From Chaenocephalus aceratus (taxonomy: Eukaryota > Chordata > Actinopteri > Perciformes > Channichthyidae): a stretch of 64,000 nucleotides of DNA. Shown here one piece after another: positions 18,200-59,051 of the stretch (positions are counted from its first letter, which is position 1; each line of letters begins with the position of its first letter). A model generated the notes under the pieces. The model worked only from the letters and a program-made list of their open reading frames with translations, had not been told where the DNA came from and searched no databases. The stretch lies in assembly GCA_023974075.1 (NCBI GenBank), contig JAMFTG010000603.1, forward strand, positions 1-64,000, given 5' to 3'. Made by a program: the position numbers and the translations under genes.

Positions 18200-18890
18200 A
18201 GAGACAGACAGAGGGAGGTGTTGAAGCTTCTGTTTAAATGTTCTTAACAGACATTGAAGAATGGGTTCACATGTTTGAATCTATCTTTAATCAATAGTCA
18301 AGTGCTCATATGAACACGTGAACAACTGCCTTGTTTGGTGCAAAATGATATTCTATACTTTGGGACGTTCTGGTAGTCTACATTACATGAAATATAAAAC
18401 ACTGACATACATCTTTGCACAGAGCCAGTTTGAACATCAGGAAGGATAAGTCACGGAGCTTACTGAAGAACAGGAACACATTTAAACTGCGGCTTTTTGC
18501 CCAATTAGCAAAACAAGCAAACACCTTCACACACGCTTCCTATTGCAACATGTGTGGCAGCAAACGAGAGGGGAGATGTTAATACAAACTGTTGAACTGA
18601 CATTGATGAAGCCATATCTAGGAGCTTATATTATTTAATAGTTATCCATTTATTTTATTGTTCTTTTTTGTTTATAGTAAATCTTCCTTTTAATTCTTAT
18701 TTAAGTTTATCAAATAAGTTGTACTATGCCTCTGTTTTTGTAAAGGCAGCCTTTGGGCACCGGGGGAGGGGAGACCGGCTCATTATAAAGCTGGGAAACA
18801 GGTGGTAGTGAGCGCCCGTAGGCTTATGGTTTTTAACCATCGGGTAAGAAGGAAGAGAAATGCTTGAGTATAATAAATCGCATTGAAACG
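18200..18890. other. Spacer, nothing recognised
   Basis: The first 50 bases resemble the intron next to the extra stalk exon of copy F. Otherwise there is no supported feature. Confidence 0.4.
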
Positions 18891-18892
18891 AC

Positions 18893-19300
18893 TTTTGTGA
18901 AGTTGAATCTATTCTCAATGACAGACCAATCACAACTGTGTCAGCTGATCCGAAGGATTTAGAACCCCTCACGCCAAACCACCTGCTGCAGCTGAAAACC
19001 AAACCACTCTTACCACCTGGACTCTTCTGCAAAGATGACCTCTACACCAGAAAGAGATGGAGACAAGTTCAATACATTGCAGACCTCTTCTGGCAGAGGT
19101 GGGCTAAAGAATATCTGCCACTCATGCAGCAAAGGCAAAAGTGGGTCAACACTAGAAGGAATCTTCAACCCAACGATATTGTGGTCATCGTCGATGAAAC
19201 AGCACCAAGGAACTCATGGCCCCTCGGCCGTGTGGTTACAACCCTGCCCGGACCCAAAGGTCTGGTCAGAAGTGTGTTAGTTCAGACCAAGACTAACATC
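18893..19300 (+). pseudogene. BEL/Pao retrotransposon pol 3' fragment (DUF5641-like)
   Basis: An uninterrupted frame reads through [62 protein letters not shown] and WPLGRVV. This is the conserved region after the integrase core in BEL/Pao polyproteins. The rest of pol, gag and both LTRs are absent. Its 3' end runs directly into the repeated receptor-flank block at about 19300, so the junction is a recombination or truncation point. It was once part of a retrotransposon polyprotein and is not a host gene. Confidence 0.8.
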
Positions 19301-19960
19301 CTGTCCCTCCCTGGAACTCTGCTGGTGCTGATGTTGACAGAGTGACTGAATATTGAGGCCTGATCTCCTTCTTTCTTATTTTCATCCAAATGGTCGCACC
19401 ATGAATAAGATTGTTTCTCCAGACTTGATTAAAGCACTGATGTTTTCAAGAGAAACACAAAAACAACAATGTGTGGCAGCACATTTATTCAATGGTGCCA
19501 ACAGAGTAAAACAAGACATTGCTCAAAGACACAAATACAGACAGATACAAATCATCCATAAACTGTGCGTCATCAGAATAGCATCAGGGACAGTTTCATC
19601 CCACCGGCCAGAAGACTATTAAACACCTGAGCTTGCACTATTTCTATTTGTATTGTTGTTTTTTATATGTATTTCTTATGTCTTGTTAATTGCACTGTTA
19701 AGGAACCTGAGATCACATGTTTTATACATTACATAATCACACCGTAGTTTCTAAATGTCATGACGATAAACCTTTGAATCTTGAAAAATAGTTATTAAAC
19801 AGACTCTGGAACTTTGTATTGAGAACAAGTGATGCAGCGCCCTCTGCTGGCCGCTAGAAGCAATACAATAAAAGGGTCCATAGTCTTTGCAATAATCTGC
19901 AGAGTTTAAGCGTTGCATCTCTAACACAATAGAATAACATTATTCACACTAAACAGTTTA
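19300..19960. repeat. Segmentally repeated 3'-flank block (copy B)
   Basis: Nearly identical to the blocks at 8.8-9.4 kb and 27.1-27.7 kb. It lies downstream of receptor B and is fused on its left to the BEL/Pao fragment. Confidence 0.75.
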
Positions 19961-45697: not shown

Positions 45698-48600
45698 ATG
45701 GAGCTGCACAAATCCTTCCACCTGGGCGACGAGAAACACCAGATGCTGAATCTGAACCGACGCCTGGAGACTTACCTGAGCCGGGTCAAACTCCTGGAGC
45801 AGGAAAATGCACTTCTGGAGAAAGAGATCGAGGCGATGAGGTGCAGTAATCGGGGAGTATCTTCAAGGAGGAAGGGCCTGGAGGAAGAGATGCTACAGGT
45901 AAGATAAGATTCAAGATGCAAGGCTTTTATTGTCATGTGTGCATAGCTACAGTTTAGATATGACAATGAAAATCTGAAGTCAAAGGCTCCTCCAACAGTG
46001 CAACACAATAAAACAGATAAAATAGTGCAAGTATATACAAATAAAATAGAATATAATAGTGCAAGAATACTCTATATACAAGTAATTGGAATATTGATAA
46101 GTTGCAAACAGATGAATGTTATGGATGTTCTTTCAAAAGTTCAGGTGTTTAATATTCTCATGGCCTGAGGGATGAAACTGTCTCTGAGAGTCTGATGGTT
46201 TAGACCTGATAAGATAAGAAGTACTCTATTGATCCCAATGGCAGCAACATAAAAAGACAAGGCAATGTATATTGGAGAAATTAAAAGACTAGAAATGAAC
46301 AATTCAAAATGATCTACCTAATTACACGTTCGAAAAATAGAAATAAAATAGCATTAAAAAAGTAAAAAATAATCGATACGGCTTCATTGGCGATATTGTA
46401 TCGATAAATGGACGCAGGGATGCAAACAGGTATGGTGAAAAAAGAGAGAACTATTCGAAGCAGAAACAAAACAGCGTAATATACCATCTGACAAAGGCCT
46501 GCGCTATAATGCTTCAATTAACTGGCTATTCTTTTATCATATACTCAGATCAATAGGAGACAGAGATGTTAAGTTATAAATCAAGGGTTTTTATTATTAT
46601 TTACAGCAGGGGTGGGGAACCTTTTTCCTTTATATTTTTACAACATCCTCCGAGGGCCGTACAAATGATGAACTCAACCTCTGCTTAAAAAACTAAAATC
46701 ACAGCCCATTCATTTGGCCTTTCTTTCATTCTGTGCAAAGAAAAAGCAAACTCTTAATCCAGATATGTTACCATGACTCACGCATGCATGCATGTGCACG
46801 ATTGTGGCATGACCACCAGAAACTTTTCCAATACACAAATCACCCAAATCAGCGTTAAAAAAGCGGGAGGCGCCGAAAAGCGACTAATTTGCATCACTGA
46901 GACGCCAGATATCGATATTTTATTAGATAAACGATAGCATATCCATCCGAAAGATGGTCGTACACTTGACTGATGATTTTCATACACAAAGACAAAAAAC
47001 AACTAATGCATTTAAGCTACATCCATATTAGCATTACTTTAGCATAGCATTAAACAAGTGAACTTCAAATAGTTAGCCAAGTTAACGATTTAAGACACAA
47101 ACGACATTTGTACAACAGTTAACACTAACCTTGTGCCTCTTCGGGGTGCTAATACTTAAATGTAAACTTCATATTTTGATATCGCCGTATTTAAATGTAG
47201 ATATCTCCGTTAATATATGTACTTTATCTCTGCTCTTGATCCGTCATGTTTTAGCTTTGGGAATAGTAACTTCCTGTTAATAGCGCAAAGTCGCCTTCAA
47301 CATAAAAGCATGTCTATGTAAAACAGGAAGTTAAGCTAAATTACACTTCAGACATGTATACAACTGCAATGAAAGTAACACAAACACTTTTCGGTTTAAA
47401 GAAAACACAAATTGGGTTATTTACATGAACTATTCATATTGCAAATCCAAATTAAAGTGTTGGTAACAATAGCTTTTTCAATTGACTAAAAGGTGCTGAG
47501 CTTTTTCTTGTGCGGTCATGGCCATGGGTAAAGTCAGTGGGATTGGCAGGAAGTTAGTCCAAACAAAGATGGAGTCAGCGGAGAAAGAAATCAGAAATGC
47601 GCCTGTCGCGTTTAAATCAAAGGTGTGAAATTATTTGTGATTTTTTTAACCAGGAAGGGAAGACAGGCATGGATATGAGCCGTGTGATTTGCAATATCGC
47701 AATATATCATATCACAATACTTAGCATATCGTAGAATCGCAATACTATCTTATCGTGGGGAGCCTTGTGATTCCCTTTGTTACTGTACTTAAGTACATTT
47801 TTCTGGTATCAGTACTTTACTCCACATGTTTTTCTGACGACTTTTTAAATTTGCATTTTGAACACAAATACCTGTACTTTCTACTTCTTACATGTTGAAC
47901 TCAAATACCTGTACTTTCTACTTCTTACACTTTGAACCCAAATACCTGTACTTTCTACTTCTTACACTTTGAACCCAAATACCTGTACTTTCTACTTCTT
48001 ACATGTTGAACTCAAATACCTGTACTTTCTACTTCTTACATGTTGAACCCAAATACCTGTACTTTCTACTTCTTACATGTTGAACTCAAATACCTGTACT
48101 TTCTACTTCTTACATGTTGAACTCAAATACCTGTACTTTCTACTTCTTACATGTTGAACACAAATACCTGTACTTTCTACTTCTTACATGTTGAACTCAA
48201 ATACCTGTACTTTCTACTTCTTACATGTTGAACACAAATACCTGTACTTTCTACTTCTTACACTTTGAACCCAAATACCTGTACTTTCTACTTCTTACAT
48301 GTTGAACTCAAATACCTGTACTTTCTACTTCTTACATGTTGAACTCAAATACCTGTACTTTCTACTTCTTACATGTTGAACACAAATACCTGTACTTTCT
48401 ACTTCTTACACTTTGAACCCAAATACCTGTACTTTCTACTTCTTACATGTTGAACTCAAATACCTGTACTTTCTACTTCTTACATGTTGAACTCAAATAC
48501 CTGTACTTTCTACTTCTTACATGTTGAACTCAAATACCTGTACTTTCTACTTCTTACATGTTGAACTCAAATACCTGTACTTTCTACTTCTTACATGTTG

Positions 48601-51600
48601 AACTCAAATACCTGTACTTTCTACTTCTCTCATTTCCCAAACAGCTGGTTCCTTTAGTCTGAATGTATGTTGGTGCGTGGTCATTATTCTTTAGAGTCAC
48701 TGCGTGCCTATTGGTTGGAACACGATCCGTGTATCCATCACTTCCTGGTCTTCTCTAAAGAAGAGCGACCAATGGAAACGTTGTCATGTTGCCGTTGTTC
48801 ACCATGGAAACATTCATTAGCTAACAATGACATTATTGTTCTATTGATATAAAGGGAGGTCAGGTACTCTTTAAAGCAGCTGCTAGTTATGGGTACTTTC
48901 TACTGAAGTACTGTACACTTCAAAGCCTCTTTACTTTGACTTGAGTTAAGTTTAGTTTAGTTTAGTCAGTACTTCTACTTTTACCAGAGTATTTTTAAAC
49001 ACGAGTATCTGTACTTCTATTTGAGTAAAGGATGTGTGTACTTTTTCCCTCTCTGCCTGTAGGTGAGGCTGGAGATGGATTCAGCCTGGATGGAAAGGGT
49101 GTTCGCAGAGATGGAGGTCTGCAAGATGGCCGAGGAGCTTCAAAACCTGGATGTTCAGCGGCAGAGGGAGGCTGAGGCCCAGCTGGATGCCAGGAAGAAG
49201 CTGGAGCAGAGCAGGAAGGAGCTGGAGGAGGAGCAGAGGGCTCAGATGTGGCTCCGGGAGAAGGTGAATCAGCTGGAACACGAGATGATGCACCTCATCC
49301 AAACCCATCAGGAGGACGTGGGCCACATGGAGGCCGAGACGAGCCGCTCCAGAGCCAACATGACCCCCATGTTGGCTCAGAGAGGAAACCACACTCTAGA
49401 CCTCCTTCAGGTGAGACCAGAGGTGGGAAGTAATGGAGTACAAATACTTTGTTGCTGTACTCAAGTACATTTTCCTGGTATCAGTACTTTACTCCACAAC
49501 TTTTAACTTTTACTTATCATTTCATTGCATTTATTAGAGCACTTTTCCCGAATGCTCAAAGCGCTTTACATTCCATATTACACGTATCAGACATGTCACA
49601 GTGAATACAGCAAATTAGGGTGAAGTGTCTTGCCCTAGGACACAAAGTTATGGGTACTTTTTACTGAAGTACATTACATACAAAGCCCATACTTCTTTAC
49701 TTTTCCTTGAGTAAAGAAGTGTAGTCAGTACTTCTACGAGTATTTTTAAACACGAGTATCTGTACTTCTACTTGAGTAAAGGATGTGTGTACCTTTTCAA
49801 TCTCTAGGTGGGACAGGATTTCTCGCAGAGGGCAACCAGAGCCTGGCAGGTGGAGGCGGAGGTTCATCAGACTCAGTTAGATCAGCTGGAGGAGACACTG
49901 AACCAGAGCAGGAGCCGCCTATCAGAAGTGAACCAGGAGAAGAAGGAGAGCGAGGTGAAGCTCAGAGCTCTGGAGAAGGAGATGGACTCGGCTCGGGACG
50001 TCAGGAAGCGTCTGGAGAGGAACGCCCAGCAGCAGGGCGACGGATACAGAGAGGAGATCCGGACACTACAGGTGAGAGCACCTGCTGGAAAACATCCTGA
50101 TCTGACATCTGTCTAAACATCTGTCATAAAGCCCGGGCTACAGTACGTACTCTCAAGGTGTCTTTGGCCGTACACAAAGGCATGTGCTGTAGCCTGAAAA
50201 CAACGATCAATTCACTAAAGAAAACTTGAATGAAACGACTCAGTTAAGTAAGAAGGATCAATCGTTTCAGGCTTCAAATAGACGTTGTATTTATATATAA
50301 AATATATCCTATATAGTACTATGGAGAGATAAAACACAAGAACTCAAATTTGACTTTCGTTCTTTTTTACTTTTAGAGAAGTCGTGATAAATAACTTCTG
50401 AGAATTTGTTGAGTTAAATATCCGTCATCCAGTGCTACTTGTTAAGATGCAATCTCTCTCTCAGGGTTTCACATGTCAGAAATACACACAGTCTGAAATA
50501 GAGACGTGACAGGCCACAGGGGAACAGCTGATCGTCTGCACTGAGGTCAGGGAGGAACAATGAAGTCTAGACCCTAACCGGCGTTAACACGACTGGTCAA
50601 GGCTTACAAATATCTCACTTTAAAAGGTATTGTGCTCACATCCTTTACTAAGTAGAAATGTTGCAGTCTAGACATACTCCATTACAATTATATTCAAAGT
50701 CAATTGCAGAGAGAAAGTCCCTCTGGAGGAGACACAGTGTGCAGAGAATCAGAATCAAGTTTATCGCCAGGTACGTTTACACATACAACGAATTTGCTTT
50801 GGTGTCTGGTGGTGCGAACATAAACAATCTAAAAATATATATATAAGTATAATAAAAAATAAGTATTTTTAAGAAACAATTTCGCATTAAAAAAGGATGC
50901 TGAAGACAAGTATTTACACCAACAAATGGGGAATGGGAATGGGAAACCCCAAAAGGCTGAAAGGGCCCTTAAGTCCTTCACAATGTGCCACCAAGTGTTT
51001 AAGGAGTTATTGCCTCAGAAAGCTAATTTAAATTCTGATTGAATGAAAACATTGGTCTGAAAGCGGCAGGGGGCGGGGCAGGGGCGGGCAGGGGCGGGGC
51101 AGGGGGCGGGGCTACATATATATAGGCTGGGGTTTGTAAGGATTAGTTCTGGGTCACAGTGAGGTCTGAGGGGTGAAGTACCCAAATAAAGAACGTTTGA
51201 ATTCAACGCTGCCTCCGCCTCAGAGAGAGCGTGCGAATACCAGCACAGATGCATGTACTGTCAATCAACCATTCAATCAATCTTTATTTATACAGCCCAA
51301 TATCACAAACGTTACATTTGTCTCCTCTGTCCTTAGACCCTCTGTCCTTAGACCCTCTGTCCTTAGACCCTCTGTCCTCAGACCCTCTGTCCTTAGACCC
51401 TCTGTCCTTAGACCCTCTGTCCTCAGACCCTCTGTCCTCAGACCCTCTGTCCTTAGACCCTCTGTCCTCAGACCCTCTGTCCTTAGACCCTCTGTCCTCA
51501 GACTCTCTGTCCTCAGACCCTCTGTCCTTAGACCCTCTGTCCTCAGACCCTCTGTCCTCAGACCCTCTGTCCTCAGACCCTCTGTTCTTAGACCCTCTGT

Positions 51601-54600
51601 CCTCAGACCCTCTGTCCTCAGACCCTCTGTCCTTAGACCCTCTGTCCTTAGACCCTCTGTTCTTAGACCCTCTGTCCTCAGACCCTCTGTCCTCAGACCC
51701 TCTGTCCTTACACCCTCTGTTCTTAGATCCTCTGTCCTTAGACCCTCTGTCCTCAGACCCTCTGTCCTCAGACCCTCTGTCCTTAGACCCTCTATCCTCA
51801 GACTCTCTGTCCTCAGACCCTCTGTCCTTAGACCCTCTGTCCTTAGACCCTCTGTCCTCAGACCCTCTGTCCTCAGACCCTCTGTCCTTAGACCCTCTGT
51901 CCTCAGACTCTCTGTCCTCAGACCCTCTGTCCTTAGACCCTCTGTCCTCAGACCCTCTGTCCTCAGACCCTCTGTTCTTAGACCCTCTGTCCTCAGACCC
52001 TCTGTCCTCAGACCCTCTGTCCTTAGACCCTCTGTCCTTAGACCCTCTGTCCTTAGACCCTCTGTCCTCAGACCCTCTGTCCTCAGACCCTCTGTCCTTA
52101 GACCCTCTATCCTCAGACCCTCTGTCCTCAGACCCTCTGTCCTCAGACCCTCTGTCCTTAGACCCTCTATCCTCAGACCCTCTGTCCTTAGACTCTCTGT
52201 CCTCAGACCCTCTGTCCTCAGACCCTCTGTCCTTAGACCCTCTGTCCTCAGACCCTGTATCCTTAGACCCTCTGTCCTTAGACCTTCTGTCCTCAGACCC
52301 TGTATTTTTAGACCCTCTATCCTTAGACCCTCTATCCTTAGACCCCACTGTGATGAAAACAAACCATAAAACAGCAGGTTTACTGTCGCTTTCAGAAAAC
52401 ACAACCCAACACAGAAACTGTTTGTTTACCACTTCACTGTGAGAATGCATTCATACCTCTTTTTAACCGCCTCCTCTTCCTGTGTCCCTTCCTGTTTTGG
52501 CAGGAGCATTGGGAGAGCCTGGAGGCGCAGAAAGAGGAGCTGAGCGACCACATCGATCATCTTCTCCTGGAGAACCGAGGCCTGCAGCAGCAGAAAGTGG
52601 CTCTGGGCCTCGAGGTGGCGACGTACAGGTACACAACACTGCTTTAGACACCAAGGAACTCTGACCCTACCGTAGCATTGTCAAGATATGAGCGGTCAAA
52701 TATCAAGAATAGAGACCGAGACCAACCAAACAGTGTTTCAGCTGCAGGGTTCAACAAGGACAGTGCCGGGCTTTGGAGTAGTGGCCAAACTGAGGTACTA
52801 CATCTTTAAGGGTTTGTCAGGTGATTGCCCCGGTCCAAAAAAAACTCTTCCGAATATAGACCAACATCAAATAAATTCCCTTTTACTTTAATTTAAGTAA
52901 CTTCCCAAATCCTGAGTTATCCAAGAGCTGAGACCAAGCGGCTGTGAGGCGGGTTCAAGGAATCACTACAGTGTTCGTGCTGTTTGCTGCATGGATGCAG
53001 AAGATCACGGTTCAGGGTTCTTTATTGTCAAACTAACATAGCTACAGAGTCATTATGTCGTTGAACATCTTAGGTCACAGGCTTCTCCCACAATGCAACA
53101 CAATAATAAAGTATATTATATTAAAAGTAATACAAAAGAAAAGTCAAGTCAAAGAACGAGATCGCGGATACAAGCGGCCGAGATGGGTTTTCTCCGCCGG
53201 GTGGCTGGTGTCTCCCTTAGGGATAAGGTGAGAAGTTCGGTCATCCGGGAGGGACTCGGAGTTGAGCCGCTCCTCCTTCGCGTCGAAAGGAGCCAGTTGA
53301 GGTGGTTCGGGCACCTAGTTAGGATGCCACCTGGGCGCCTCCCTAGGGAGGTGTTCCAGGCACGTCCAGCTGGGAAGAGACCAAGGGGTAGACCTAGGAC
53401 CAGGTGGAGGGATTATATCTCTTCGCTGGCCTGGGAGCGCCTTGGGACCCCCCAGTCAGAGCTGGTTGATGAGGGGAAAGGAAGTTTGGGGCTCTCTGCT
53501 GGAACTGATACCCCCGCGACCCGACCACGGATAAGCGGGAGAAGATGGATGGATGGACAAAAGAAAAATAGTTCTAAAAAAAGTGCGAAAAAAAAGTGGA
53601 ATAGTGCAATACGAGTCTATATACAAGTTATTGGAATGATATATTAGATCATAGATAAATAATGATTAAGTAGCAGATGCATGTTGTGACATTGTTTCAG
53701 CAGTTCTGGTAAATGTTAAACTCGGAGGCCGAACTGTGTGCTTCATTGAGTCACAGGAACAAACTGGGCCCTTCCAGCATCTATGGGAGAGAGACTGAGA
53801 GGTGGGTTCATTACAGGCTCTGACTTTTCCAAGACACAATCTAATTCCCTGAGGAAAGCCGTCACCAGGCCTTCCCTCGTGTACATTCACAATCACAGCT
53901 GATCCATACCTGATAGTCGATACAGAGAAAAAAGGCATCACCCCTAAAAGGTACGCGGTGGAATGTGCAAAGATGGGACCTATTTGGTTTAGCTTAGGCA
54001 ATAAACGTTATATTGATAAATGATGGGGTTGGGATTTCTACAAGTGTCTTCTTTCTTTCTGAGCAAAATAAATGTACATTTTTAAAACGTGCTTGCTTAA
54101 CTTCACTGTTTTGCAAAGTTCTATCGTTAACAGTTTTTCAAAGAGCTAAAAGTGAAAAGTATCTTTCTTTTTATGGTTTATTTCCATTCAGAGGAAAACA
54201 TGTTAAAAGTTAGGAACTGTACACAACTCTCAGCTTTGTGCTCCGTTTTCTTTCCCATCAAAGACATCGTGATCAATGGGCGAGGACTAGCTATTATGAT
54301 ACGACTGTCGTTGCGATCACAGGTTTGAAATGAAAGCGCAGATGAAGAATTGACGGAGATACGTCTCCAGCCTTCGTGCCGCTTTCATGACAAAGGTGTC
54401 TCTCAGGTGGTGTCGCTGTTGGCGGCCCGCTGTGAGCATTAAAGCTTCACTCGGTGGATGGTCTAAAGATATCACATGTTTGATGTCAGACGTGTGGGAG
54501 GGAGGATGCATCTCTTCTAACGTATTTGAGATGTTTGGTGAAAGCCGCCTCCCTCACGTCACGGGAGCTGACTCAGTCCTGATGACAATGACTTGCTCAA

Positions 54601-55599: not shown

Positions 55600-58500
55600 A
55601 TTAATGGTAGAGGTGTGTGTGCTGCAGATGGCTCCTCAATGGCCCTGTCCTCATTACCATAACAACAGTCCGTTCCTGCTGCTCAAGAGTCACCCTGCCC
55701 ACAAATCGCTCCGTGTGCAGCATCAACTCCAATCTACAAACCCTACATGTATCACATGGTGTGTGTAAAAGATGCAAATGTTAAAAAAAAATGTTCTTGA
55801 TGTTCTTGTTGTCTCTACAGAGCTTTGCTGGACGCTGAAAGCCTCAGGGGAGATATCTCTTTGTCAAATCATCCGAGGAACATCTCAGGTAATTAAAGTA
55901 AACATCACTGCATAACAACCTCTTCTTTATCTGCACTCTCATATGTAAGGGTATAACTAAAAGCTCTCAGAGCAGGAGACATGTTGGATACGGTTGGTAA
56001 TCTCATTAGTTTGGTGGGAGCTGAGGTAGGCACTTTGGGTCCTGTAATGCAAGACAGTCCCCGAAGGTTATTGAGCCAAATGGCTCCGCTTTCCGGCAAC
56101 TCAGACATCGGCGAAAGGAAAGGACGATCAATATCTCCCCATTAGTGTCCACCCTTCATATGTTTTAATAATGTGGAAGGTTCTCCACAGTATCTCTGTC
56201 ATGTTGAGATGACTTGGGATGGTTTCCAATACAAGTGAAAGCTGTGTGGAGGAATCAAATATCTATGATACTGTAGATTTAGCAGAAAATGTAAATGCAT
56301 AGAAATGGGTTTGAACCAAAGAGACGTCAATGCAAGTCATTGCTATTACTCAGGTCATTGTGTATTCATGAGCTCTTGTCCTCCACAGATGCAGGTTTCA
56401 GTCCTCGGGGGGTTACAAAGAATCACCAGAGCCAGATGTCCACTCGCCACAAAACCACTTCATCTGTCCGCGGTATAACAGGAAGAAGACCAACAGCAAT
56501 CAATTCAACACCAACATGGAGTAGAAAACATGTTACCGTCACTGAAACTCCAAAGACGTCTACAAAGTCAACATGGGCCACCCCTTATCCCAAAATACTG
56601 CATGATGGAGCCATTGAGAATTTCAGACCACAAGAGGTTCGAGAGAAAGTCACCTACGCCGAGCCTCTATCGCCTCCCAATGAGCAGGAGGCTGAAACAA
56701 CACCAGGGGACAAGGAAGGTGAAGAGAACTGGAACAATGTTGGTGTAAAGCCTCATGAGGAAGGATCAGTCATCGAGCCAGTTGTCAGCTATCGGGTTGA
56801 GTCCGCTCTCAGCAAAGAGCCAGCCTTGAATGAGGAGGTTAGTCAGCATCAGTTCACCGCTCCTAGTCTTACACCGTACCATGTCAAAATGTCCGAAGAG
56901 CACGGTGGCTTCTCAGATGACTCGGAAAGGGATGTGCCTTTTGGAATACCACAGAACCAGAATGCTCCAATTGAAGCGTGGGTAGAGAAAGAGTGGAAAG
57001 GCAAGGAAGGAGAACATGTGCGGGAGGAACGGTCAGATTCTGAAGCCGACGCGGTAATTGAACCAAACTATGATTCAAGGACCGGAAGTCCAAGGTCTGA
57101 ATGTGAGCCTGAAGAAAACGAGTTCAACATCAGAGAGGAAATCACCCGTAAGGAGGATGCAGTCGAGATGAGGCAAGGAATCGGCGGTTCTTTAGAAAGA
57201 ACACATGAGATGGAGGATAGGTTGTACCCTGACGGAGAAGAGATGGACACATGGGATAGTGTTATCGAAAGGAAGGTGAAGACAGAGGATGGCGTAAATA
57301 AGGATGAAGAGAAGCAAAAGCACGCCGAACCAGAGGAAGATATATCAGCAAGAGATCATGAGAAGAGAGAAATGAGGCAGGGTTCTGCCACAGATGTGCA
57401 GCAGGACAACAATGTGTCCTCTGCACTGACGGACACACAAGTGGATGATGACGAAAAGCATGATGTGTTAGACCAAGACGACGAAGAAGAGGACGAAGAG
57501 GAGGATTCTCAAAACATCTCCGTGTCATGGCGGACGGAGGTGGAGAGTGACAGCTACGCTCAGGAAAACACTCTTGCCGACACTCGTCCTCTGATTCGAT
57601 ACAAGAGCGATGAGTGTGACGCTAACACTCACGCCTCACACCCGGAGGAGAGCGAGTGCAGTGAAGGTGAGCAGGAAAAGAAGATCGGAGAGTTGGGATC
57701 GTGGAGCGAAGGCAAGTCCAAGAGATTTGGAACCATGGAAGACCTGTGTGAAGAAGTGGAAGGAGAAGCATTGGACGAGGACTATAATCTGGGATATTCT
57801 CACATTGGAGACCGGGATGTTGAGCAGGCTTCACTGGTGAGTGAAGAAGAAAGGATCGGGAAAGTCAGTGAGGGACATTCGGAGGAAGCACCTGAAGAAC
57901 TGACCAAACCAACGGCACCAACATATGTGGACTACGACGAGGAGTTGGAGACAGACAGACTTGTGGAACAGGAATTGGAAAACCTGGCCACAGACAGCTA
58001 CAGCGCTCACTTTGCTCAGCAGCAGGTCAGTGAGAATGAGGAGAGGCAACATCTGGAAATGCCGGAAGAAGAAGATGCTGGAAAGTCTTTTCGTGCAGAG
58101 ACTGAAGTGAGAGTAAACCGCCAACTTGCATCTCCCACTACCATTATAGATCAAGCCTACGAGAAGTTCAGTGATTGGCCGGTAATGCCTCAAGGTTTTG
58201 ATGATGAGGAGGTTCAGAATACAGATCGTGAGGCTCCAGGGGGAAAAGAGGAAGAGGATGAATACAATGCATCCATGGTGACACATGCGGATGTTACAGA
58301 AGATTACCCTGACTTTACTGACTATATCAGAAGGCCAGACATGGAAGAAGTCAACAACTCAGACGATCCAAAGTCTGTATTAGAGGTTATATCAGATCAG
58401 GAAGTCTTGCAGGATGTGAAAGAGGTTGCACCTGTGATATCATCCAATGAATCCCAAGAAAGTCTAACTGAGGATGTGACAGAATCTCAGGAATTCCCGC

Positions 58501-59051
58501 AAGTTCCAGAAACAGCTGAATGGGAAGTCCTTGAGAACCCAAGTGAGGATTCAAGAGGTCAAAGTGCAACATGTGAGAATGTGACTGAACAAGCTGAAGG
58601 TTATCTGCATGATGACGGAGTTAGGACACATCAAGAGAAGCCTTTCGAGATGTCCCCCGACAGTGTTCCCGATGAAAAAGAAATCTTTGTACCGAAGGAC
58701 TCATCGGATTTATTTAGCTCCGGCGAAAAGAATGACTTCTGGTCGTCCTCCTTGGAGACCGGCGCCACCTATCAACCAGATGATGTCCGTAACGAGGCAG
58801 CGGAGCAAACCAATCAGAATCTAGGGTTTGCTGACAATATGGTTTGGGGGAGTTCGGAAAATGTGGATAACTGGTTCTCCAGGGAGGATAATGACTCGTC
58901 GAAAACCCTGTCCGCGAAGAAAGAGCATGAGCAGATGCATTCGGAGGTGAAGCAGGTGTTGGGTAGACATGTCGTTGAGGGGGAGGGGGTCCATTCTGAC
59001 GAGTCTGACGCAGAGGAGGAATCCTGGTCCTCTGAGGGGGAACCGGTTTAG
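45698..59051 (+). CDS. nes: Nestin, type IV intermediate filament (1222 aa)
   Basis: Exons 45698-45898, 49063-49410, 49808-50071, 52504-52628, 55821-55888 and 56389-59051 join to 1223 codons with GT-AG introns (phases 0,0,0,2,1). The head is very short. The rod opens MLNLNRRLETYLSRVKLLEQEN (coil 1A) and closes LGLEVATYRALLDAE (residues 306-319), the helix-termination motif. A long acidic tail follows. A short head plus huge acidic tail means nestin or synemin; the TPYPK..ENFRPQEV segment at the tail start and exons of 125 and 68 nt favour nestin. Nestin co-assembles with vimentin-type filaments in neural and muscle progenitors. Introns 3-5 match the known nestin layout. Introns 1 and 2, inside coil 1, are extra and are filled with transposon-like sequence. 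No frameshift or premature stop. Confidence 0.9.
45905..46210 (+). repeat. Dispersed repeat at start of nes intron 1
   Basis: Begins 'gattcaagatgcaaggctttt' seven bases after the donor and ends near 'gatgaaactgtctctgagag'. Same family as 34027-34215 and 53008-53155. Confidence 0.6.
46606..46830 (-). mobile_element. Partial hAT element B end
   Basis: Begins CAGGGGTGGGGAACC and matches, inverted, the right end of hAT element B (42180-42430). It is truncated. Flanking sequence in 46360-47760 contains more degenerate 'cgatattgtatcgat'-type repeat pieces. Confidence 0.75.
47770..49057. mobile_element. hAT-like element at 3' end of nes intron 1
   Basis: Contains 'tactgtacttaagtacattt', 'agtactttactccac', 'tggttggaacacgatccgtg' and an end 'tgtgtactttttccctctctg', all typical of one abundant fish non-autonomous element. 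Its 3' end stops five bases before the exon 2 acceptor AG and forms the polypyrimidine tract. Its interior is expanded by a 37-bp minisatellite. The last 160 bp closely resemble the 3' end of intron 2. Confidence 0.7.
47866..48627. repeat. 37-bp minisatellite, about 20 copies
   Basis: The unit is 'aaatacctgtactttctact' followed by 'tcttacatgttgaactc', with a few variant classes (ttgaactc, ttgaacac, ttgaaccc). The unit is a normal internal segment of the surrounding hAT-like element, amplified in tandem. Confidence 0.95.
49418..49806. mobile_element. hAT-like element forming nes intron 2
   Basis: Left end CAGAGGTGGGAAGTAA; right end 'gtgtaccttttcaatctcta', matching the family end 'tttttccacctctg' imperfectly. 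The flanks are GGTGAGAC (49410-49417) and GGTGGGAC (49807-49814), a 7/8 target duplication. The intron is 397 bp (49411-49807) and the element 389 bp, so nearly the whole intron is the element. A second dispersed repeat ('cgctttacattccat') replaces its middle. The left duplication provides the GTGAGA donor; the last element base plus the first base of the right copy make the AG acceptor. Confidence 0.75.
51066..51190 (+). promoter_or_regulatory. GC-box array plus TATA, LTR-like
   Basis: At least five GGGGCGGGG-type boxes (51066-51112) are followed within a few bases by TATATATA (51115-51122) and then, 60 bp on, an AATAAAG (51185). GC boxes, TATA and a close polyadenylation signal resemble the core of an LTR. 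It lies within nes intron 3. LTR boundaries are not identified. Confidence 0.4.
51264..51323 (+). repeat. Dispersed repeat bordering the minisatellite
   Basis: The 'tttatttatacagcccaata' segment matches the repeat at 4500-4560. In this fish family the sequence normally continues into a 'ctctgtccttagac' stretch, which is the minisatellite unit here. Confidence 0.6.
51324..52344. repeat. 15-bp minisatellite, about 68 copies
   Basis: Unit 'gaccctctgtccttaga' without overlap is 15 bp, with a recurrent T/C variant (ccttag or cctcag) and rarer variants (ttctta, gactct, ctatcc). There are almost no indels, so every 60 bases hold exactly four units. Because 15 is divisible by three and no stop arises, frames of about 375-400 codons stay open on both strands (for example SVLRP repeats). 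It lies in nes intron 3 and is not coding. Confidence 0.97.
53008..53650 (+). repeat. Dispersed repeat split by a LINE fragment
   Basis: The pieces 53008-53155 and 53560-53650 belong to the same dispersed family as 45905-46210 ('tttattgtca', 'aatagtgcaa..ctatatacaag'). A LINE 3' end sits between them. Confidence 0.6.
53155..53560 (+). pseudogene. LINE pol C-terminal fragment with (GATG)n tail
   Basis: An open frame reads MGFLRRVAGVSLRDKVRSS, ERSQLRWFGHLVRMPPGRLP and GKRPRGRPRTRWRDYI. This is the very frequent C-terminal part of a fish non-LTR retrotransposon polyprotein, ending in a GATGGATGGATGG tail typical of 3' integration. It is 5'-truncated, with no reverse transcriptase domain. It lies in nes intron 4. 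Confidence 0.85.
53651..55515. other. nes intron 4 interior, nothing recognised
   Basis: Unique-looking intronic sequence. Short frames at 53666-54001 and 54387-54704 have no recognisable homology or splice context. Confidence 0.4.
55516..55597. repeat. (GT)n microsatellite
   Basis: A GT run with one GCGC interruption in nes intron 4. Confidence 0.95.
56389..59051 (+). CDS. nes: nes exon 6, acidic nestin tail (886 aa)
   Basis: The last and largest coding exon follows a CCACAG acceptor at 56381-56388 and ends TAG at 59049-59051. It starts in phase 1, completing an Asp codon. It is very rich in Glu and Asp, with runs such as DDEEEDEEED, and has few hydrophobic segments; no domain, membrane span or internal repeat of the mammalian 11-mer type is obvious. 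The first 60 residues are basic and Ser/Thr-rich. The C-terminus is SDAEEESWSSEGEPV. At about 900 residues the tail is shorter than in mammals, as expected for fish nestin. The frame upstream of 56389 (from 56295) is intron read-through and is not part of the protein. Confidence 0.9.

Follow-up and report, generated by a model that had tools for sequence, protein, structure and literature searches.

A maize Ds element, a non-autonomous hAT transposon inserted in sh2, is reportedly spliced out together with one copy of its target, a finding ascribed to Giroux and the year 1994. Here we describe a vertebrate counterpart in a stretch of 64,000 bases (the window; positions 1 to 64,000 of contig JAMFTG010000603.1) of the notothenioid Chaenocephalus aceratus. 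The contig comprises 130,881 bases of a 1.06 Gb genome and carries the nestin gene (nes), whose second intron coincides with a hAT-like element. The maize case reportedly shares with nes the transposon type, an 8-bp duplication and the removal of the element plus one target copy by which the exon is restored. Ds in sh2 is however a plant mutant allele, whereas nes is a vertebrate gene with the insert on both haplotypes and with two point changes at its splice sites.

Intron gain in vertebrates is called very rare and its mechanism obscure (PMC2746811, PMC3151243, PMC12357937). In new serpin introns of fishes no repeats were found according to the excerpted report (PMC2746811). In stickleback and medaka, repeats occur in some of the new introns of receptor genes, and element ends at the splice sites are not described in the excerpt (PMC3151243). 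In notothenioids, introns 3 and 5 of slc26a2 were gained in the ancestor of five Antarctic species and are absent in Eleginops and Bovichtus. Intron 3 derives from NTE-1, an element with tgt...aca ends and 4-nt repeats, with gt-ag located in the direct and inverted repeats, while NTE-2 and NTE-3 hold 37-nucleotide (nt) repeats of different sequence (PMC12357937). Like nes intron 2, slc26a2 intron 3 goes back to an exonic transposon insertion in notothenioids; it was later lengthened by another element (PMC12357937). Owing to its ends and 4-nt repeats, NTE-1 is a different kind of transposon from the nes element.

Introners with target duplications and inverted ends, such as those of Symbiodinium, resemble nes intron 2 in that the donor comes from the target duplication, the acceptor lies at the element end and the mRNA length is unchanged (PMC9860276). 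Unlike these, the nes hAT family usually has no AG at its end, and one exonic case was found. The hAT element Tol2 of medaka shares with the nes family ends beginning with CAGAGGTG and 8-bp target duplications (PMC4818426). It encodes a transposase, whereas the nes-family copies are short and show no recognisable transposase frame in the loci read.

A literature search by title and beginning of the abstract, leaving subscription journals mostly uncovered, gave, among the papers listed, no report of intron gain in fish nestin or of a hAT-born vertebrate intron. Likewise, a dedicated search on the structure of the zebrafish nestin gene found nothing, and a search with the end sequence of the element returned nothing relevant by title. 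Within the literature searched, nes intron 2 is the clearest vertebrate hAT example we met, of a kind of event that is already known. The element, both of its ends, the near-perfect target duplication, the empty site in other fishes and the frame logic can all be read directly in this one vertebrate case. As the genome also supplies the sequence of the family, the base changes that gave rise to donor and acceptor are identifiable and open to testing. For the transposon route of intron gain, the locus provides a clean vertebrate example, with unusual detail on how a vertebrate can gain an intron with its protein reading intact. It also hints that a search for further intron gains could profit from turning to Antarctic fishes.

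The hAT element and its place in nes

The notothenioid nes gene lies on the plus strand, to which all features below refer, and has six exons with an open frame of 1,220 codons once joined. Residues 11-320 of the joined rod correspond to the Pfam Filament domain (PF00038, E 8.4e-28). Among the matches listed in a protein search (best 120 of 192), identity to nes is 94% for Champsocephalus esox, 93% for Pogonophryne albipinna, 75% for Eleginops maclovinus and 66% for Cottoperca gobio. Exon 1 (45698..45898) runs from the start codon to ...EEEMLQ, exon 2 (49063..49410) from VRLEMDSAW to LDLLQ and exon 3 (49808..50071) from VGQDFSQ to IRTLQ, after which an older intron follows.

We are highly confident that a hAT insertion into a nes exon became intron 2, predicted to be removed together with one target copy. 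The predicted intron 2 (49411..49807; 397 bases, phase 0, GTGAGA...CTCTAG) contains a full-length, non-autonomous hAT-like element (49418..49806) with the left end CAGAGGTGGGAAGTAA and the pyrimidine-rich right end ...CTTTTCAATCTCTA. It is preceded by the left 8-bp target copy GGTGAGAC (49410..49417), which from 49411 on forms the donor GTGAGA, and followed by the right copy GGTGGGAC (49807..49814), which spells V-G-Q as relatives do. The acceptor AG (49806..49807) takes its A from the last base of the element and its G from the start of the right target copy. Hence intron 2 equals the 389-base element plus one 8-bp target copy with zero leftover bases, and coding restarts immediately 3' of the first base of the right copy. 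The initial annotation of the window had placed the two 8-mers and the element, ending in ...ATCTCTA, at exactly these coordinates. Its claim that intron 2 spans a hAT-like element from end to end was borne out as well; further copies in the genome set both ends independently.

Predicted splicing of 49411-49807 joins LDLLQ to VGQDFSQ exactly, and in this respect frame logic agrees with the proposed restoration of LLQ-VGQD, the splicing itself being a prediction. Left unspliced, the 397-base insert is not a multiple of 3 and shifts the frame, with a stop after 31 codons. GGTGAGAC and GGTGGGAC match at 7/8 and are thus one base apart. In the window, a match of at least 7/8 is reached by 41 of 63,596 pairs of 8-mers at the same spacing and by 551 of 400,000 pairs at random spacings of 300-600; none of 945 random pairs beginning with GGT and G reaches it. 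A second nes locus was found on C16 near 41.80 Mb (L009/L010, C16:41.794-41.813 Mb) with 98% identity over two long aligned blocks, which most simply represents the other haplotype. Both haplotypes carry the intron-2 insert with identical boundaries.

The 389-base element matches at least 46 places in the fish's own genome (best 40 of 1,778 candidates scored). Twenty genomic stretches were retrieved. Copies lacking an end or having a truncated one were excluded, as were L013 and L020, which repeat L011 and L019; the left ends of L011 and L023 were shifted by 1 and 14 bases, respectively. In the ten non-nes copies with both ends, the flanking 8-mers match at 8/8 in four (L011, L018, L023, L028), at 7/8 in L012 and L014 and at 6/8 in L017 and L027, and they are unmatched in L022 and L024. 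The other copies end at the positions corresponding to 49418 and 49806, with flanks of at least 6/8 in 8/10 and of at least 7/8 in 6/10. The proposal that the nes 8-mers are an aged target duplication was thus supported, as most other copies have matching 8-bp flanks.

Besides the 8-bp target site duplication, the family shows short terminal inverted repeats of the hAT type (CAGAGGTG...), with CAGAGGTGGG on the left and usually, read outward, CAGAGATGGC on the right. Ends of the form CAGAGGTGGG... and ...CATCTCTG combined with 8-bp duplications identify the copies as hAT elements. The left end of the nes element agrees with the end of Tol2 (PMC4818426) at 16/20 positions and is the sole such place in the window. 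The usual right end of the family also reaches 16/20, in a comparison free of a control. Two subfamilies can be distinguished. Subfamily A, with a AAGCGCTTTACA-like module, comprises nes intron 2, L011, L012, L014, L017 and L018. Subfamily B has a different module, in some copies with a 37-nt array, and comprises nes intron 1, L023, L024, L027 and L028. Measured against the majority of five subfamily-A copies, the nes intron-2 copies lie at a Kimura two-parameter distance of 0.058-0.069. Element patterns gave 0 matches in viral_contigs and 0 in genome_contigs.

A protein search with nes exons 1-3 yielded 81 proteins, 17 from named sources and 64 open reading frames (ORFs) from public contigs (lgn or ena). 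The search admits only proteins of 0.55-1.75x query length, and the 64 contig ORFs are clusters, not species, a few of them nearly identical. All 64 cross the junctions of both intron 1 and intron 2, and 61 are gap-free within 8 residues of either junction; the remaining three (P0049, P0058, P0061) carry small indels close to junction 2. Past exon 3, 63 of the 64 show V encoded by GTN, the residue expected from a translated GT donor. P0038 reads A, and none enters exon 4. The contig ORFs look like genomic or unspliced sequence in which exons 1-3 form one exon up to the older intron. All of them pass the site and extend into the intron that follows, so the nes exon was originally undivided. A fish with an intron here would yield ORFs too short for listing, so the empty site holds for many fishes and not necessarily for all. 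For zebrafish, a 704-bp genomic polymerase chain reaction (PCR) product of nes is described as a single exon in the excerpted report (PMC1950091), and it would, as we infer, span both junctions. From these comparisons we conclude that introns 1 and 2 were both gained in the lineage of this fish. Of the two checks suggested with the initial annotation, an element-free intron at the site in distant fishes and copies with other ends, neither spoke against it as far as the comparisons reach.

Closer relatives keep the same reading. The models of C. esox and P. albipinna read LLQVGQDF across the intron-2 junction, Eleginops reads LDLLQ-VGQELSQ, and V-G-Q follows the junction in these three and in Cottoperca. 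The model of D. eleginoides ends an exon at the same LDLLQ and is also without part of exon 2. Both Dissostichus models drop other exon stretches and are therefore imperfect. Going by them, the nes insert is probably shared across genera. When exon 2 extended into intron 2 was used in a protein search to look for the insert in further notothenioids, two matches resulted, both known models and neither showing the insert.

Donor and acceptor of intron 2

We propose that, in the notothenioid lineage, the first coding exon of nes received a non-autonomous hAT element of ~400 bp. Its insertion would have doubled the 8-bp target GGTGGGAC, the initial G of which makes up a CAG|GT proto-splice site. 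From the left copy the donor would have arisen, GTGAGA today after one change, and from the pyrimidine-rich right end of the element the tract before the acceptor. A G-to-A change at the last base of the element would have created the acceptor AG, with the G supplied by the start of the right copy. Excision of the element and one target copy would then restore LLQ-VGQD. What we infer here is the splicing itself, the dating, and in which direction and order the two bases changed.

The last base of 30 family copies is G in 28, C in one, T in one and A in none, whereas nes has A on both haplotypes. As the family usually ends in G, the nes acceptor AG required a change. One of the 30 copies, L023, ends in CTCAG and has its own AG through another change. 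The initial annotation had composed the acceptor of the last base of the element and the first G of the right copy, which holds for the position, but not for the A as a feature of the family. It had also assigned the donor to the left copy. This is correct, but the left copy itself is most likely mutated, the right copy keeping the ancestral reading. Joined via the left copy, the flanks would read V-R-Q, whereas the right copy spells V-G-Q. Since the right copy keeps the reading of the relatives, the left one has most likely changed from G to A, converting GTGGGA into the better donor GTGAGA. The usual right end of the family, ...ACTTTTGCCATCTCTG, is pyrimidine-rich. Judged from sequence, the target would have given the donor, the element the tract and one end change the acceptor, with seemingly no ready splice site in the element. 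Moreover, both nes copies carry T for G (T in 2/30 others), which is at most suggestive of an improved pyrimidine tract.

Several points weigh against this origin. The usual last base G gives no AG, so that precise splicing did not follow automatically from the insertion. The target duplication reaches only 7/8, and splicing is predicted from frame logic. The right end of the nes element agrees with Tol2 at only 14/20, a value that 8 places in the window reach (PMC4818426). Four loci (L066-L069) were read for a transposase frame and none could be recognised, no transposase-family search having been made. C. esox, P. albipinna and Eleginops were compared by protein alone, in which the presence of the insert is not seen. 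In the D. eleginoides model LDLLQ is followed directly by RATRAW, as an acceptor lying 21 nt downstream would give, and the D. mawsoni model skips the insert region, hence neither Dissostichus model uses the nes acceptor. It may be that a downstream AG was used before the end change and that Dissostichus keeps this intermediate with a later acceptor. This is only a possibility, because the D. eleginoides model lacks part of exon 2 and the D. mawsoni model skips the region.

The hAT family at other donors and in intron 1

The genome was scanned for left ends of the family with a donor within 6 bases upstream, with a backward control in each search. This gave 26 junctions with GTGAG, two of them the nes haplotypes, and 11 with GTAAG, the backward controls yielding 0 and 0. 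The 37 donor-like junctions include several haplotype repeats; six of the 35 non-nes junctions were read in depth and 29 by their flanks. In L066, L068, L069 and L070 the sequence is coding-like up to the donor and non-coding after the right target copy. The next exon is readable downstream in L066, L068 and L070, which we presume to resemble slc4, cmbl and CaMK genes. L067 has no right end in the stretch read, and L071 is not coding-like. The elements in the four loci appear to have landed at or a few bases from an existing donor. Their target copy covers or adjoins the donor, be it that donors are preferred or merely tolerated.

Coding sequence on both sides was seen only at the two nes haplotypes among the 37 junctions (six others in depth). 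At nes intron 2 the element spans the intron end to end, and the predicted splice sites come from the duplication and the element, as in introners. The initial annotation had equated this with the introner mechanism as such, a claim that we do not uphold: AG is no feature of the family, and four of the six donor-like junctions read in depth appear to lie at or beside donors of introns extending past the element. Going by these junctions, nes intron 2 appears as a clear exonic case, and the hAT family as a general introner is not established.

Intron 1 (45899..49062; 3,164 bases) is a repeat mosaic without counterpart in the retrieved relatives and is also absent from the 64 contig ORFs. Its last 1.3 kb is a second hAT copy, belonging to subfamily B (47775..49055), of which the left ~29 bases are missing. 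A 37-nt tandem array of 20.9 copies (47854..48628) lies inside it. The right end CTCTG is located at 49055 and followed by CCTGTAGG; the acceptor AG falls within 8 bases past this end. Within the intron, bases 15-143 match repeats found elsewhere in the window. A second target copy was sought, but CCTGTAGG and the end of exon 1, GCTACAGG, agree at only 5/8 by eye, and no claim is made. Intron 1 may have been founded by the same hAT family; its 5' end does not show it.

Notothenioid genomes grew via multiple transposon families, and the Antarctic clade diversified ~10.7 million years ago, as stated in the excerpted report (PMC10256766). A wider reading, which we regard as tentative and rather improbable, is that two independent insertions of two subfamilies each became an intron in one ancestral nes exon during this transposon expansion. 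Together with slc26a2 this would mean that Antarctic fishes repeatedly convert exonic DNA transposons to introns. The hAT right ends would be preadapted, because their pyrimidine tract is one base change away from AG, and Dissostichus may keep an intermediate with a later acceptor.

More doubtful still is that the family is a true introner that makes introns repeatedly, those of nes (1 and 2) representing just two among many. In its favour, each of the extra nes introns ends in a copy of the family, the two subfamilies being different, and L023 carries an AG of its own (1/30). In notothenioid slc26a2 two introns were gained from transposon-like sequence, and two elements have 37-nt repeats (PMC12357937), as does subfamily B. 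Such an activity is however difficult to reconcile with coding sequence on both sides seen at the nes haplotypes only (six further junctions read in depth), with 0/30 family copies ending in A and with a 5' end of nes intron 1 that is not a hAT element.

Other possible origins of intron 2 and the remaining locus

For intron 2 itself, we consider it very unlikely that the insert is unspliced and disruptive, nes then being a pseudogene or a null allele in this individual. The insert does break the frame and its splicing is predicted only. Moreover, exon 4 of the C16 haplotype is one base longer as assembled, and the joined reading is broken there. The nes gene of the window nevertheless has an open frame of 1,220 codons and shares 93-94% identity with its counterparts in C. 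esox and P. albipinna. The insert is present on both haplotypes, and both Dissostichus models put an intron across the insert point.

Even less credible is an old intron at this site into which the element inserted before the remaining old intron was lost. The family does occur in introns at or within a few bases of the donor, as appears to be so in L066, L068, L069 and L070 out of the six donor-like junctions read. Against this stand the 64/64 contig ORFs without an intron at the site, a set in which intron-shortened ORFs could not be listed, and the single exon of the zebrafish genomic PCR. Furthermore, intron 2 has no base beyond the element and one target copy. Tandem copying of a piece of exon that contains AGGT, or break repair, would account for the short flanking direct repeat with AGGT, but can practically be dismissed, as what fills the intron is a dispersed repeat whose ends are defined, and no exon copy. 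An exonic hAT insertion thus stays the preferred origin of intron 2.

Downstream of the older intron, nes continues with exon 4 (52504..52628; EHWESLEAQKEEL...LEVATYR), exon 5 (55821..55888; ALLDAESLRGDISLSNHPRNIS) and the tail exon (56395..59051), which ends with ESWSSEGEPV and the stop codon. Intron 3 holds a 15-nt tandem array at 51324-52345 with 68.1 copies of the unit CCTCTGTCCTCAGAC. Its units resemble 3' splice sites, consisting of pyrimidines followed by CAG or TAG, and the array lies ~160 bases upstream of the exon 4 acceptor at 52503. Elsewhere in the window, an ORF at 18887-19345 is presumably related to retroelement integrases, and another one at 53042-53647 in nes intron 4 is what we take to be a fragment of a reverse transcriptase of the long interspersed nuclear element (LINE) type.
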